A stretch of DNA of 64,000 bases, from NCBI RefSeq assembly GCF_009769735.1, contig NZ_WSRO01000002.1, positions 9,039,001-9,103,000 on the forward strand, read 5' to 3'. Within the stretch, counting starts at the first letter, position 1. Each line of letters starts with the position of its first letter. Source of the DNA: Streptomyces sp. BA2. Lineage in GTDB: Bacteria > Actinomycetota > Actinomycetes > Streptomycetales > Streptomycetaceae. Positions 7,698 to 31,918 of this stretch are shown one piece after another. Below the pieces are notes generated by a model that did not search any database, was not told the origin of the DNA, and saw only the letters and a list, made by a program, of their open reading frames with translations. The position numbers and the translations under genes were made by a program.

Positions 7698-8192
7698 TCA
7701 GATCCGTCCATGCGTCAGCCGAGTCAGCGGTCCGCCCTGGATCTTCGCTGTCCGGCGCCCGGCGGTGAAGGAAAGTCCGGCCACACTGACCACACCTGCG
7801 GCGGCACCTGCGGCAATGGCCTTGCGGTTCTTCACCAGGGTCCAGCCGGCGACTGCCGTTGAAGCGACCTTGCCGGTGGCCGATGCGACCGTCTTGCCGC
7901 CACTCTCGATACCCGCGGCCGCCGCCTGCTTCGCACGCTGTGTCGCGACACCGAAGGAACGCGCACCAGTACCGGCGGCGTCGGCCGCCTCCTCGGCGGA
8001 TCCCTTGGCCTTTTCGGCAGCTTCAGCCGACTCCTGCTTGGCCTCAGCCGATTCCTGCTTGGCCTTCTGTGCGGTGGTGTTCACCTTGCGCGCCCCTGTA
8101 TTCGCAGTGGACCGCCCCTTGGCGGCTGCCGTCTTCGTGCTCTGCCGAGTTTTTCCGGCGTTGTCATCAGAGGTTCTTCTCTCGTCAGCCAT
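7698..8192 (-). CDS. Ala/Lys-rich coiled protein with one membrane-like segment
   Basis: 164 aa from ATG 8192 (MADERRTSDDNAG). The middle is low-complexity helix built of KAKQESAEA, KQESAEAAEKAK and similar units, like LEA or histone-H1-like proteins. Near the C-terminus AIAAGAAAGVVSVAGLSF is a short hydrophobic segment followed by a basic tail. It may be a nucleoid- or membrane-associated protein; no defined family was recognised. The start is uncertain because no strong ribosome site is present. Confidence 0.6.
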   Translation of the reverse strand: MADERRTSDDNAGKTRQSTKTAAAKGRSTANTGARKVNTTAQKAKQESAEAKQESAEAAEKAKGSAEEAADAAGTGARSFGVATQRAKQAAAAGIESGGKTVASATGKVASTAVAGWTLVKNRKAIAAGAAAGVVSVAGLSFTAGRRTAKIQGGPLTRLTHGRI

Positions 8193-8247
8193 GCAGTCCG
8201 TGTTGCCACACAACGCCATGTGAAACGCGTGGCATGAAATGACGGTG

Positions 8248-8273
8248 TGGACATCGCCAGGGCCTGCTAACGT
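8248..8273 (+). promoter_or_regulatory. Possible promoter for the Thr leader transcript
   Basis: TAACGT at 8268-8273 fits a -10 box and would place transcription start at about 8280-8281, on the ATG of the leader peptide (a leaderless message). A good -35 box is not obvious; TGGACA at 8248 is spaced too closely. Confidence 0.35.
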
Positions 8274-8280
8274 CTCGCGC

Positions 8281-8331
8281 ATGAAGCGCGCTGCTATGAC
8301 GACGACGCCAGAGAGTGTCCCGGCGCGCTGA
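8281..8331 (+). CDS. Threonine leader peptide (16 aa)
   Basis: The frame reads MKRAAMTTTPESVPAR followed by TGA. Codons 7-9 are three consecutive ACG threonine codons, and the next gene is a threonyl-tRNA synthetase paralogue behind a strong hairpin. This is the classic layout of ribosome-mediated attenuation: stalling at the Thr codons when charged tRNA-Thr is scarce would let GTCCCGG (8317-8323) pair with CCGGGGC (8353-8359) and prevent the terminator. No Shine-Dalgarno site precedes the ATG, so translation is probably leaderless. Function is inferred. Confidence 0.7.
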   Translation: MKRAAMTTTPESVPAR

Positions 8332-8345
8332 CAGATGATCTGATC

Positions 8346-8377
8346 CGAAGCCCCGGGGCGAGTGCCCCGGGGCTTCG
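8346..8377 (+). terminator. Attenuator hairpin upstream of the ThrRS paralogue
   Basis: CGAAGCCCCGGGGC (8346-8359) pairs perfectly with GCCCCGGGGCTTCG (8364-8377) over a GAGT tetraloop. It lies 14 nt after the leader-peptide stop and 39 nt before the ThrRS start. The leader contains GAGTGTCCCGG, a near copy of the loop plus 3' arm (GAGTGCCCCGG), so it can compete for the 5' arm. Confidence 0.75.
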
Positions 8378-8416
8378 CCTTGCGGTCACTCGCCCGATGT
8401 CCGCGAGGAGACCGCC

Positions 8417-9643
8417 ATGCATGACCACCGCAAGCTCGGCCGGGAACTGGGCCTGTTCGACACCGACCCGCTGATCGGCGCGGGTCTGCCGTACTGGCTG
8501 CCCGACGGCGCAGCAGTACGGCACACCCTGGAGGAGTACATCCGCGCCGCCGAGCGGCGAGCGGGCTACCGCCACGTGTACTCACCGGTCCTCGGCAAGC
8601 GGGAGCTGTACGAGATCTCGGGGCACTGGGCGCACTACAGCGACGACATGTTCCCCCCGATGGACCTCGGAGGAGAGCAGGTCGTGCTGCGGCCGAGCCT
8701 GTGTCCTCATCACGCGGTGATCTACCGCTCCCGCTCCCACAGCTACCGCGAACTGCCCCTGCGCATGGCTGAGTTGGGAGGCATGTACCGCTCCGAACTC
8801 TCCGGCGTGCTCGGTGGGCTGACCCGGGTGCGGGCCATCCAGCTCAACGACGCGCACATCTTCTGCACCTTGGACCAGGTCGCCGATGAGGCGCAGGGCG
8901 CGCTGGAGATGATCCGCCGGGCGTACGAGGCGCTCGGCATCACCCCGACCCGCTACCGGCTCTCCCTCCCGGGCTCCGGAGGCAAGTACGTTGCCGCCCC
9001 CGAGAAGTGGCAACGGTCCACCGCCATGCTGACCGAGGTCCTCGACCGCTCCGGTCTGCCCTACGACGCGGCCGAGGGCGAGGCCGCGTTCTACGGCCCC
9101 AAGATCGACGTCCAGGTCACCGACGGCGCCGGCCGGGAGTCCACCCTCTCCACCGTCCAGGTCGACTTCCACCAGCCCGAGCAGTTCGATCTGCACTACA
9201 TCGGCGCGGACGGCGCCAAACACCGCCCGGTCATGGTCCACCGCAGCATCATCGGCAGTGTGGAGCGAGCCGTTGCCCATCTCATCGAACAGCACGGCGG
9301 CGCCTTCCCCGCCTGGCTCGCCCCCACTCAACTGGTGATCCTCCCGATCTCCGACACCGAACTGCCGCACGCGGCGGCCCTCGCTCGGCGATGCGCCACC
9401 CTCGGGCTGCGAGCCGAGATCGCAGGACCCGATCGCGGCACTCTGGGCGCCCGTATCCGAGAGGCCCGCGTGGTTCCCTACCAAGCCGTCATCGGCGCCA
9501 AGGAAGCTGCTGACGACCATGTCGCACTGCGTCTGCGTGACGGACGCCGACTCGACCCGCAGCCGGTCAGTGAGGTACTCACCCACATCAGTGCACTCGT
9601 CGATGCCCACAGCACCGACTTGTGGGGCAACACTGCTGCATAG
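8417..9643 (+). CDS. Threonyl-tRNA synthetase paralogue without TGS and editing domains
   Basis: 408 aa against about 640-660 for a full ThrRS. The protein opens directly at the class II catalytic core (DHRKLGRELGLF) and ends with the anticodon-binding domain. Zinc-ligand positions appear kept: Cys in RPSLCPHH (about 97), His in NDAHIFC (about 147) and His in VMVHRSIIGS (about 275). Motif 2 is present as RMAELGGMYRSE. The usual TQDDAHIFC is QLNDAHIFC here. The TGS and editing (N1/N2) domains are missing entirely, so mischarged Ser could not be cleared in cis. It could be a stress or antibiotic-resistant isoform (as with borrelidin-type ThrRS inhibitors) or charge a carrier other than tRNA. 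Its own Thr-codon leader suggests starvation control. Confidence 0.88.
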   Translation: MHDHRKLGRELGLFDTDPLIGAGLPYWLPDGAAVRHTLEEYIRAAERRAGYRHVYSPVLGKRELYEISGHWAHYSDDMFPPMDLGGEQVVLRPSLCPHHAVIYRSRSHSYRELPLRMAELGGMYRSELSGVLGGLTRVRAIQLNDAHIFCTLDQVADEAQGALEMIRRAYEALGITPTRYRLSLPGSGGKYVAAPEKWQRSTAMLTEVLDRSGLPYDAAEGEAAFYGPKIDVQVTDGAGRESTLSTVQVDFHQPEQFDLHYIGADGAKHRPVMVHRSIIGSVERAVAHLIEQHGGAFPAWLAPTQLVILPISDTELPHAAALARRCATLGLRAEIAGPDRGTLGARIREARVVPYQAVIGAKEAADDHVALRLRDGRRLDPQPVSEVLTHISALVDAHSTDLWGNTAA

Positions 9644-9671: not shown

Positions 9672-10325
9672 TTAGTAGGCGGCTCGGGGGCGGCCGCCGG
9701 TCCAGGGGCCCCCGAAGTCGGCTGCGGTGAGGGTGACACCGGTCAGGACACGTACGGCGAGGATGAGGCAGCCTTCGGGCTCTTCGGTGTCGGCTTCGCC
9801 GGTGGGTTCACAGTCATCGGAGGCGTCGAAGCCGGCCGCGGTGAGGGAGCCGACGACGGGGTGGCTGGTGTCCACGCTGCCGGAGGGGCCGTCGAAGTAG
9901 CCGCCGGACAGTTCGAGGCGGCCGAGGATGGCGCCGTCGTGGGCGATGGTGGCCGCCTTCGTGTCGGGGTCGCGGTAGGCGCTGATGGCGGTGTGGCCTT
10001 CGGCGGCGAGGGTGCGTAGGACATCGTCATCGAAGCCGATCCAGCTTTCGAATTCGATGGTGAGGGTCCAGCCGCCGGGCATTTCACGGCCGAGGATGAA
10101 GGCACCTTCACCCTGGCGCTCTTGGAGGAAGTCTGCGGCTTGGTTCAGGCCCTCGGGACAGGGGAGGGGGCTGGCGACGCCCATGAGGTGGAGGGCTTCG
10201 ATGAGTGGGCGGGGGGCGAGGGTTACGCACCAGCCTTCGCCGAACATCTCGTCCAAGTCCACGTGTGGGGCTTTCTTGTCGGGGTCCGGGGGGGGGACCT
10301 CGGGGTCTGCGGGGTCTGCGGCCAT
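9672..10325 (-). CDS. DUF6461-like hypothetical protein
   Basis: 217 aa from ATG 10325 (MAADPADPEVPPPD); the longer frame upstream runs into a tandem repeat. An acidic-proline N-terminus precedes a domain with GEGWCVTLAPRPLIEALHLM and GGWTLTIEFESWIGFDDDVL, the pattern of the Streptomyces DUF6461 family, whose role is unknown. The C-terminus GGPWTGGRPRAAY is Gly/Arg-rich. It converges on the ThrRS gene (28 nt between ends). Confidence 0.6.
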   Translation of the reverse strand: MAADPADPEVPPPDPDKKAPHVDLDEMFGEGWCVTLAPRPLIEALHLMGVASPLPCPEGLNQAADFLQERQGEGAFILGREMPGGWTLTIEFESWIGFDDDVLRTLAAEGHTAISAYRDPDTKAATIAHDGAILGRLELSGGYFDGPSGSVDTSHPVVGSLTAAGFDASDDCEPTGEADTEEPEGCLILAVRVLTGVTLTAADFGGPWTGGRPRAAY

Positions 10326-10365
10326 TGTGTCTAGATGGCTGAGCCCAAAGGGTAGGCGGCCCAGA

Positions 10366-10395
10366 TGAGATGAGATGAGGTGAGGTGAGGTGAGG
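10366..10395. repeat. TGAGR pentamer repeat, six units
   Basis: Six head-to-tail pentamers (TGAGA x2, TGAGG x4) lie 40 nt upstream of the DUF6461-like start, in its probable promoter. Copy number could vary by slippage. Confidence 0.8.
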
Positions 10396-10595
10396 GAGTT
10401 CAAGGACCGGTCGTGCCGCCCTCGCCCCGCCTGGCACGAACACTCCAGCAGCCGCGACTGGCGCAAGCGTCACTGACCCGGCCGACCCTCCTCGGCGTAG
10501 CGGGCCAGCCCCGGGGTCCAGGCCGACCGACTGTGTCGTATCCAGACTGTCCACCTTGGACCACAGCGGCCATTTAGGCATGGTGTGGCCGGCCG

Positions 10596-29863: not shown

Positions 29864-30217
29864 TCGCGCAGGTTATCCGTGCAGCGCCGACGGCCGCGCG
29901 GCCATATTCTTTCTTCGACTTCCCGAACCACCGGCGGGGAACGCGTCTCGCCTACGGACGTACGCCGCCTGAGACACCCTGGGTCTGAGACGCCCGCTGC
30001 GGCTGGTCGTCTTCATCGGAGCGGCCACCTGCGCCGCACCCACGCTCGGTGGTGGCGCCTGTCCCGCGGGTCTGCTGCAGCGGTGCTGAGGCGCGATCCA
30101 GATTCGTCGGAGTTCGTCGGAGTTCTCGGGCTGAGGATGTCGAGAACGTGCGACCAGCTTCGTCCCAGGGACATCAGCGGCCGCCGTCGGCCGCGCGAGG
30201 AAGAAGGAGAAATCAGC

Positions 30218-30658
30218 ATGGCGATTCAGCGGATGGACAACGTCGGCATCGTCGTCGAGGACATGGATGCCGCCATCGCGTTCTTCGTGGAACTCGGTAT
30301 GGAGCTGGAGGGCAGGGCGGAGGTCGAGGGCCTCGTCGCCGACCAGTGCACCGGACTCGACGGCGTCCGCTGTGACATCGCGATGGTCCGGACCCCGGAC
30401 GGACACAGCCGGCTCGAGCTGGCGAAGTACCGCAGCCCCGCGGTGATCAGCGCCGGGCCGCGCAACCGGCCGCACAACGTTCTGGGCACGCACCGCGTCA
30501 TGTTCGCCGTCGACGACCTCGAGGACACCGTTGCCCGCCTGCGCCCTCACGGCGCCGAACTCGTCGGCGAGATCGCCCGGTTCGAGGACAGCTATCTGCT
30601 CTGCTATCTCCGCGGCCCGGCGGGCATCATCGTCGGACTGGCCGAGCAGCTGCGCTGA
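30218..30658 (+). CDS. VOC-family protein (glyoxalase/dioxygenase superfamily)
   Basis: 146 aa, starting at ATG 30218 behind AAGAAGGAGA. Opens IQRMDNVGIVVEDMDAAIAF and closes YLRGPAGIIVGLAEQL, with VMFAVDDLEDTVARLRPHGA for the second module. His and Glu metal positions appear usable (NVG replaces the usual HxG, so the first ligand may be missing). Role unknown; such genes often give resistance to, or modify, small molecules. Confidence 0.85.
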   Translation: MAIQRMDNVGIVVEDMDAAIAFFVELGMELEGRAEVEGLVADQCTGLDGVRCDIAMVRTPDGHSRLELAKYRSPAVISAGPRNRPHNVLGTHRVMFAVDDLEDTVARLRPHGAELVGEIARFEDSYLLCYLRGPAGIIVGLAEQLR

Positions 30659-30665
30659 GAAGGAG

Positions 30666-30690
30666 GAACCGAACCGAACCGAACCGAACC
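30666..30690. repeat. GAACC pentamer x5
   Basis: Five perfect tandem copies begin 8 nt after the VOC stop codon. Confidence 0.9.
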
Positions 30691-30729
30691 ATCGATCCCG
30701 GCATAACGGGCGATGAAATGGCTGCCCTC

Positions 30730-30880
30730 GCGAACGACTACGCGAGGGGCTCCGATCTTGGCGACGGCTCGACCTCTCTTCATCGCTTCGGTCAGCGAGA
30801 GAGCGAGGCTGGCCAGGACGTCGACGACCTCGCGTATGTAGCGGTAGACGGTCGCGATGCCGATGCCAATGCCAATGCCG
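30730..30880 (-). pseudogene. Transposase N-terminal fragment
   Basis: Read on the minus strand: GIGIATVYRYIREVVDVLAS, then LALSLTEAMKRGRA. This is the helix-turn-helix segment of the DDE_Tnp_4 transposases whose catalytic half survives at 14464. The start is eroded into a GATGCC-like microrepeat (30855-30885), and no catalytic part follows. Confidence 0.6.
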
Positions 30881-30895
30881 AATCCGGGGCCCGGG

Positions 30896-31918
30896 TTACG
30901 TGTCAGGGCCCGGGCGTTTGCCGGTTTCCGCGAGCAGGATCGCGCACATGATCAGGGCGGCGCCGCCGAAGTTGAGACCGGTGAAAGTGTCTCCGGAGAG
31001 CCAGTAGCCACAGATCCCGGCGAACACGGGTTCCATCGCCATGATCAGTGCGATGCGGCCGGGCGAAGAGGTGGTGAACGCCTTGGTCTTGATGAAGAAG
31101 GCGAGGGCTGAGCCCGGGATCGCGGTCACGGCCAGAGCGAGCCAGACGCTCTGCGTGGCGGGGGCGGTGAGGGGGCCGGTGGCGACGGTCCACAGGAGTC
31201 CCGACAGGCCCACCACTGTCAGTTGTACGAAGGTGAGGAGCCCTGTGTGGGTGCCGGGGCCGACGCGCGCGAGGATCACGTTCTGCACCGTGAAGGAGAG
31301 GGCGCAGCCCAGCATCAGGATGTCGCCACGGTTCACCGAAAGGCCGGTGAGAGTGAGCAGCGAAAGACCGATCAGGGCCAGGACGGCGCCTGCGCGTTGG
31401 CGCGGGCGGGGCGATGTGCGCAGCACGAGCGCCGCGAGCAGCGGGGTGAGGATCACGGCGAGGCCGGTGATGAAGGCGGCGTTCGACACAGTGGTGTGTT
31501 CGAGACCAGCGGTCTGCAATGCGTATCCCGCGAAGAGCACGCCTCCGGCCACGGCGCCGCCCCGCACCTCGCCCGCTGTCATGCGGCTCATCTCGCGGGC
31601 CTGGAGGAGGCCGACGACGGCTGCCGCACCGAGGAAGCGGTAGGCGAGGAACGCCGGGACGGATATGAGGACGATGGCGTCCTGGACGACCACATACGTC
31701 CAGCCCCACAGCGCCGTTACCCCCAGCATGGCCAGCGCCCATCTGCCGGAGCCGCCGGCCTCCGGGGAGTGCGGAGGCCTGGAGGGAGCCGGGGTTCCGC
31801 CGGGCCGGACGGCGCCGAGGCTCGCATGAGAGCTTCTCCGGCAATTCCCCTCGAAAGTTGACGAGTGGAATAGGGGGCTCTTATTTGGTAATTCTTCGTC
31901 TGTCACACTGGGCCTCAT
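30896..31918 (-). CDS. EamA/DMT-family exporter
   Basis: 340 aa with ten membrane helices in two EamA repeats (LAMLGVTALWGWTYVVVQDA ... and GDILMLGCALSFTVQNVILA ...). RhaT/YdcZ-type carriers export amino acids or metabolites. The start is uncertain: the first 55 residues have AT-rich, uncodon-like sequence, and a start nearer 31750 is possible. It is divergent from the 2-oxoglutarate oxygenase at 32074, with an AT-rich region between (31850-31990) that probably holds both promoters. Confidence 0.85.
   Translation of the reverse strand: MRPSVTDEELPNKSPLFHSSTFEGNCRRSSHASLGAVRPGGTPAPSRPPHSPEAGGSGRWALAMLGVTALWGWTYVVVQDAIVLISVPAFLAYRFLGAAAVVGLLQAREMSRMTAGEVRGGAVAGGVLFAGYALQTAGLEHTTVSNAAFITGLAVILTPLLAALVLRTSPRPRQRAGAVLALIGLSLLTLTGLSVNRGDILMLGCALSFTVQNVILARVGPGTHTGLLTFVQLTVVGLSGLLWTVATGPLTAPATQSVWLALAVTAIPGSALAFFIKTKAFTTSSPGRIALIMAMEPVFAGICGYWLSGDTFTGLNFGGAALIMCAILLAETGKRPGPDT

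Follow-up and report, generated by a model that had tools for sequence, protein, structure and literature searches.

A threonine leader peptide and hairpin before a short threonyl-tRNA synthetase gene: a putative ribosome-mediated attenuator in Streptomyces and other actinomycetes

A short threonyl-tRNA synthetase (ThrRS) gene of Streptomyces sp. BA2 is preceded by a threonine leader peptide ORF, predicted to start a leaderless mRNA, and by a hairpin, and this layout is conserved in the genus and recurs in other actinomycetes. The element probably acts by ribosome-mediated attenuation, responding to the level of charged tRNA-Thr, especially of the tRNA that reads ACG, and switching on a reserve ThrRS. 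New here are the tight and wide link of the element to the short ThrRS, the partition of threonine codons between leader and gene, and a switch strand that co-varies with its partners. The 64,000-nt stretch that was analysed (contig NZ_WSRO01000002.1, positions 9,039,001 to 9,103,000, forward strand) is termed the window, and positions at the locus are counted from its first nucleotide.

As read from the sequence, the region has the layout of a trp-type attenuator whose hairpin is U-poor, and a second, predicted hairpin covers the SD (Table 1). The leader ORF reads ATG AAG CGC GCT GCT ATG ACG ACG ACG CCA GAG AGT GTC CCG GCG CGC TGA, and direct reading confirmed the arrangement described in an earlier note on this DNA, namely a 16-codon frame with three adjacent ACG codons and a 14-bp perfect hairpin 39 nt before a ThrRS gene. 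Transcription is predicted to start at or adjoining position 8281. The segment 8281-8416 folds better than 200 of 200 dinucleotide shuffles (z -6.1), and the window holds three stems of at least 14 bp, compared with 0-1 in eight Markov shuffles, and seven short ORFs with a Thr triplet, compared with 3-9 in Markov shuffles. Taken one by one, the parts seen in the window are weak against chance, and it is conservation that carries the case.

Table 1. Features of the leader region and the ThrRS gene, in window coordinates.
Feature	Position	Strand	Description	Basis
-10 box TAACGT (within TGCTAACGT)	8268..8273	+	7 nt 5' of leader ATG	sequence
Leader peptide ORF, MKRAAMTTTPESVPAR	8281..8331	+	16 codons and stop	
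Regulatory codons ACG ACG ACG	8299..8307	+		
Region 1, AGCGCGCT	8285..8292	+	can pair with GGCGCGCT (8322-8329)	complementarity, strong conservation
Region 2, GTCCCGG	8317..8323	+	antiterminator-like pairing with region 3 possible; overlapped by GGCGCGCT	complementarity, strong conservation
Region 3:4 hairpin	8346..8377	+	14 bp, loop GAGT, no U-tract 3'	
Hairpin 5' arm, CGAAGCCCCGGGGC	8346..8359	+	perfect pairing with 3' arm	
Hairpin loop, GAGT	8360..8363	+		
Hairpin 3' arm, GCCCCGGGGCTTCG	8364..8377	+	perfect pairing with 5' arm	
Hairpin apex, GGCGAGTGCC	8357..8366	+	alternative partner: switch strand 8384-8394	
Switch strand, GGTCACTCGCC	8384..8394	+	candidate partner of SD region or hairpin apex	
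SD GAGGAG (8405-8410) with flanks, GCGAGGAGACCGCC	8403..8416	+	3' side of predicted SD-covering hairpin	folds, co-variation
Short ThrRS paralogue	8417..9643	+	408 aa; ATG 39 nt 3' of hairpin	

A comparison of orthologues, proposed in the earlier note, found both the Thr codons and the hairpin conserved. The first set comprises 80 orthologue loci (L001-L080) from named genomes of Streptomyces, Kitasatospora, Streptacidiphilus, Embleya, Streptosporangium, Microbispora, Microtetraspora, Sphaerisporangium, Saccharopolyspora, Streptoalloteichus, Goodfellowiella, Saccharothrix, Allosalinactinospora and Nocardia, and from one Dactylosporangium MAG. The second comprises 114 upstream stretches chosen by protein match, blind to the leader; it was drawn from the matches of 132 genomes, with hits at contig edges and those from the closest relatives mostly omitted. 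Together with the window, hairpin and Thr run were found by the parser in 191 of 195 stretches, counts that are not independent, since the two sets share species. The misses are L062, where the contig ends in the leader, L110, which keeps the hairpin without a leader, L157, a parser miss with the leader present, and L197. The last is a second ThrRS-like match (G014:C316, about 29992-31143), 55% identical and without a leader.

A covariance model of the element core (R1), searched in 295 genomes of the same genus, Streptomyces, matches 139 of them, and the paralogue protein matches 132 (E 1e-110). The element is present in 131 of the 132 paralogue-bearing genomes, as against 8 of the 163 without a protein match; the sole protein-only genome (G041) is the one that carries L110. 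Five of the eight model-only genomes have a leader-like sequence with the ThrRS unmatched, and the ThrRS start is still visible in two of these (G099 and G221), while the remaining three (G034, G231, G291) look like chance. The element was not seen before unrelated genes; inspected by eye, the matches without a paralogue look like relics or chance. We also note that L198 (G197), L201 (G119) and L204 (G178) hold a leader or leader-like sequence with no ThrRS match behind it, and may be relics after gene loss.

At the level of the class, 72 of 394 genomes match the model at E 0.01 or better. A Thr-run leader was found in 54 of the 60 loci from this search that were inspected, and was absent from six weak matches (L263-L268). 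The search of 198 genomes across the phylum returned six matches, of which five belong to the same genus and the sixth (G710) lies outside the class; a short ThrRS is found behind the sixth element, in a genome with 5% contamination, so a contaminant is possible. A separate observation concerns L262/L269 (G655:C17, about 71376-71463, minus strand), in which a leader-like ORF, MQAAHRPSHGTTTPGRSRRAGRMP followed by a stop, and a hairpin precede a ThrRS that was called full-length by eye, as its N-terminal domains resemble those of the full-length enzyme of the present genome.

The leader and its -10 box are present in 239 of 244 upstream regions examined, which were drawn from two genome collections and therefore share some species. 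Besides L062, L110 and L197, the misses are L129, a Thr run without a start, and L180, which keeps the leader ORF with the -10 box unrecognised. A TAnnnT box is situated 5-7 nt 5' of an in-frame ATG or GTG in 187 of 189 leaders and in none for the other two frames; L066 and L142 had been set aside from this count because the parser register was wrong. Since the box keeps its spacing to in-frame starts only, the comparison suggests that the leader is a translated ORF and that its ATG is leaderless, the latter as the earlier note had proposed. In Streptomyces lividans, the mean distance between -10 box and start is 6.3 nt, and thrL is leaderless with a mapped start site, according to a published report (PMC8079986). 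The 239 leaders range from 15 to 28 codons in length. The Thr run has three codons in 235 of them and two in the other four, and 708 of its 713 codons are ACG, the rest being ACT (three) and ACC (two). The peptide ends in VPAR in 221 leaders. In L066, L102, L190 and L222 the frame is shifted 3' of the Thr codons, giving tails such as ...RRADS, and the RNA pairing regions are kept.

Region 2 is complementary, with one G-U pair, to CCGGGGC of region 3 (8353-8359), and CCCGG and CCGGG are both present in 230 of 232 elements, in line with the possible pairing proposed earlier. Region 2 is almost invariant, too uniform to show covariation, and the case for the 2:3 pairing rests on conservation. The median stability is -32.7 kcal/mol for the hairpin, compared with -12.2 kcal/mol for the 2:3 pairing. 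Among close relatives the hairpin hardly varies, and RNAalifold detected little covariation among 60 close orthologues; distant relatives vary at several pairs with the pairing kept, and at position 9 from the loop a G-C replaces a C-G in 13 sequences (4-nt loops only; partly perhaps the result of an indel). The hairpin had been taken for a terminator. The hairpin itself is borne out, its role as a terminator being only putative: the longest T run within 12 nt 3' of the arm is 1-3 in 188 of 192 elements, four in three and six in one, so that a run of at least four occurs in only 4 of 192. The exception with six T, L117, keeps leader and hairpin and has the form of a classical terminator. In the parts of two reports that deal with Streptomyces terminators, these are described as U-poor and often without a U-tract (PMC12207403, PMC8269248).

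The switch strand GGTCACTCGCC is complementary both to the SD region (GCGAGGAGACC) and to the hairpin apex (GGCGAGTGCC). Co-variation was assessed with a permutation test, in which each sequence's own partners are compared with re-dealt partners (2000 permutations for loop against strand) and relatedness is ignored; the own partners proved the better pairs, as the negative z values show. The first test, of the strand against SD plus spacer, gave z -5.0 (n=51); with controls (n=50), z was -4.2 for the loop and -4.9 for the SD, against -1.9 to +2.1 for decoys and unrelated pairs; with class-level sequences included (n=61), it was -5.4 and -5.5, against -2.7 to +1.2 for decoys; because relatedness is ignored and one decoy reaches -2.7, the values near -5 call for caution to that extent. 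For the 17 class-level sequences taken separately, z was -4.0 for the loop and -2.0 for the SD. Joint changes of loop and strand can be seen individually. AAGT goes with CACTTG in 9 of 12 cases, and GGGT with CACCCG in 3 of 4, and single examples are L259 (GAAC, CGTTCG) and L246 (GCAC, GTGCG); with the GAGC loop (CGAGCG), the strand is CGCTCG in 7 of 18 and CACTCG in five. The exact strand complement is absent for two CGAACG and two CGCACG loops elsewhere. The co-varying strand hints at a second, translational layer of control.

Folding gave a mixed picture. In plain folding of 189 elements, pairing of the SD core is 0.70, slightly lower than the 0.74 obtained with shuffled upstream sequence, and SD blocking by plain folding was rejected as a signal, only the co-variation tests being positive. 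Two-state equilibrium folding of 186 elements gave SD pairing of 0.69 in both states, that is, no release. With the 2:3 pairing enforced in an RNA that stops short of the SD, 209 of 230 elements show loop:strand pairing above 0.5, compared with 14 of 230 when the hairpin is free; in the full-length RNA with 2:3 enforced, its mean is 0.36. Given these mixed results, a co-transcriptional loop-strand relay appears possible in the models.

The same parts could make up a purely translational device. In this case the hairpin would be non-terminating; in the closed state the strand at 8384-8394 would cover the SD, and a stalled ribosome would open the hairpin, so that the apex captures the strand and leaves the SD free. 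The missing U-tract in 188 of 192 elements, the co-variation of the strand with both partners and the loop:strand pairing in the truncated RNA are all as expected for such a device. However, the hairpin is far more stable than the 2:3 pairing, and the open state should not last; loop:strand pairing in the full-length RNA averages only 0.36 with SD pairing unchanged, and L117 does possess a U-tract. We regard control by translation alone as unlikely.

The leader and the gene draw on different threonine codons. The 81 paralogue genes (window and L001-L080) contain 1018 Thr codons, of which 971 are ACC, 42 ACT, two ACA and only three ACG; ACG is absent from 78 of the genes, including that of the window with its 18 Thr codons. 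This is in contrast to the flanking frames, 123 long, high-GC3 open frames of the same loci delimited mechanically and not annotated genes, where ACG makes up 942 of 2955 Thr codons (32%). Among frames with at least 12 Thr codons, 44 of 47 paralogue genes are ACG-free, compared with 0 of 115 flanking frames. In another 28 paralogue genes, most of them taken from the class search and some sharing a species, there is one ACG among 289 Thr codons. Full-length thrS genes use ACG for 232 of 814 Thr codons (28.5%; 27 genes), and of 30 genes of this kind 28 have at least three ACG codons.

Of the codons compared between paralogue and background, ACG deviates most. ACA comes second, and its avoidance was rejected as a trait of the paralogue, since full-length thrS is also nearly devoid of it (3 of 814). 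The share of G at the third position is 0.39 in the paralogue and 0.42 in the background for Ala, 0.23 and 0.25 for Gly, 0.58 and 0.58 for Pro, 0.40 and 0.43 for Val, 0.36 and 0.44 for Ser, 0.67 and 0.61 for Leu, and 0.48 and 0.47 for Arg; with the other codon boxes thus near background, the loss of ACG is not an avoidance of the CG dinucleotide. Thr makes up 3.1% of the paralogue, as against 6.3% for the flanking frames and 5.0% for the full-length ThrRS of the same genome. Two full-length thrS genes whose upstream stretch has no Thr-run leader, L302 (G004) and L303 (G015), each contain 29 Thr codons and not one ACG, and in L273, where the leader is lost, none of eight is ACG; the purge of ACG is therefore not strictly tied to the leader. 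In L269, the full-length thrS behind a leader-like element, none of the 22 Thr codons in the part examined is ACG.

The selective-charging theory, developed for E. coli, holds that leader codons are those read by the most starvation-sensitive tRNA (PMC1183508), and the pattern in leader and gene fits this theory. By this reasoning the ACG-reading tRNA would be the starvation-sensitive isoacceptor here, and ACG has apparently been cleared from the ThrRS gene so that the enzyme can still be made. As it avoids ACG and is poor in Thr, the gene should be translatable during shortage. The signal might alternatively be the ACG-reading tRNA alone, destroyed or uncharged by a specific agent, with the short ThrRS serving an ACG-avoiding translation. 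An ACG-only sensor in front of an ACG-free response gene would suit this arrangement, but ordinary selective charging in starvation gives the same pattern (PMC1183508), and a dedicated agent seems improbable.

In the ribosome-mediated attenuator that we favour, the signal is likely to be a fall in charged tRNA-Thr, and we infer the switch, its direction and the role of the second hairpin as follows. The leaderless mRNA would start at the leader ATG. When charged tRNA-Thr is ample, the ribosome would pass ACG ACG ACG, reach TGA and cover region 2; the 3:4 hairpin would then form and expression would be low, either by premature termination, by the switch strand lying over the SD, or by both. When charged tRNA-Thr is short, in threonine starvation or under ThrRS inhibition, the ribosome would stall on ACG and mask region 1, region 2 would pair with region 3, and the hairpin would come too late to prevent expression of the ThrRS gene. 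We also put forward, tentatively, a two-level switch with a codon firewall, in which the open hairpin would let RNA polymerase pass, the exposed apex would capture the nascent anti-SD strand and free the ribosome site, and the ACG-only sensor and the ACG-purged, Thr-poor gene would depend on different threonine isoacceptors.

Other thrS genes are under the control of a T-box, as in Bacillus, or of an operator with an anticodon-like CGT loop, as in E. coli. By this precedent, uncharged tRNA or ThrRS itself might bind the leader RNA, the ORF being incidental; nevertheless, there is no Rfam match to a T-box at the gathering score and none among the four hits with E up to 1, 187 of 189 leaders keep the ORF in frame, and the usual hairpin loop is GAGT or GAGC rather than CGT, all of which makes such control very unlikely. 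Nascent-peptide arrest, with the conserved TTTPxxVPAR itself stalling the ribosome, is hardly credible in spite of the common VPAR end (221 of 239 leaders), as the four frame-shifted leaders have another tail with the RNA kept and the conserved bases fall in pairing regions 2 and 2'.

The ORF at 8417-9643 matches TIGR00418 with 440 bits (cut-off 384), and its earlier assignment as a ThrRS paralogue is upheld. Within its 408 aa only the catalytic (PF00587) and anticodon-binding (PF03129) domains were identified, and a Pfam search of the same 408 aa found neither the TGS nor the editing domain of full bacterial ThrRS. The 10.04 Mb genome encodes its own full-length ThrRS elsewhere, 42% identical to the paralogue. 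The short ThrRS, a putative synthetase, is likely to be a stand-by or emergency enzyme. The position taken as E. coli Leu489, which was set via the STxQxDF motif and an alignment to S. aureus ThrRS and not to the E. coli sequence, is occupied by Val in 70 of the 81 paralogues and by Ile in the other 11, and by Leu in the full-length enzyme of the same genome. Changes of Leu489 in E. coli ThrRS are reported to raise the Ki of borrelidin (PMC4389257, in the part that covers this residue). The L489M change is described, in the relevant part of another report, as giving no obafluorin resistance (PMC11252418), and all 81 paralogues keep the equivalent of Gly463 (FYG); an inhibitor-resistant paralogue is therefore only a hypothesis.

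The layout had been thought undescribed, which does not hold, as a literature search turned up one relevant earlier paper. In S. lividans TK24, the leaderless thrL (SLIV_19412), encoding MKRVRPFLETTPGFVPAR, lies upstream of thrS (SLIV_19410), and its termination was called unclear in 2021 (PMC8079986). The leader peptides of L178 and L183 are identical to MKRVRPFLETTPGFVPAR and both precede short ThrRS genes of this family; judged by these sequences and the published excerpt, thrL is the same element. Common to both are a Thr leader peptide with a leaderless start and a single hairpin in front of thrS. The S. lividans report, in the sections that treat thrL, deals with two Thr codons in a single species, without codon partition or switch strand (PMC8079986). 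One annotated S. lividans leader is thus extended to a putative regulatory element that is defined in its anatomy and occurs widely in actinomycetes, and a testable answer is offered to why its terminator looks incomplete. Built into a reporter, the element could reveal a shortage of threonyl-tRNA or the inhibition of ThrRS in Streptomyces.

A spare synthetase behind a leader peptide with cognate codons is also reported for another amino acid: trpRS1 of S. coelicolor is said, in work by Vecchione and Sello from 2010, to be an auxiliary antibiotic-resistant synthetase under ribosome-mediated attenuation. Lopatovskaya et al. reportedly dealt with attenuation of aminoacyl-tRNA biosynthetic operons in the same year, and may mention thrS. 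A 2005 report on Actinobacteria predicted attenuators for trp, trpS, leuS and ilvB as well as the LEU element of leuA; thrS is not mentioned in its abstract or in the excerpts consulted (PMC1262725). With the trpS and leuS attenuators predicted there for Streptomyces, a T-box, which the earlier note named as the usual expectation for synthetase genes, is not the sole one. Like the present element, the cases in these excerpts have leader peptides before amino-acid genes, some without an obvious terminator. In the LEU element the helix reaches the leuA SD, whereas here an extra strand would pair with the hairpin apex or the SD region. The E. coli thr leader codon is ACC in the passage concerned (PMC1183508), whereas it is ACG here and the controlled gene is almost ACG-free. 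Sensor and controlled gene thus divide the isoacceptors between them, and few natural examples can be as clear-cut.

The nearest upstream gene-like ORF is on the minus strand (7698-8585, with an internal ATG near 8192). As this neighbour lies on the opposite strand, the hairpin is unlikely to mark the end of an upstream transcript. Downstream, the next gene-like ORF (9672-10466, minus strand) is convergent with the ThrRS gene and matches DUF6461 (PF20062).
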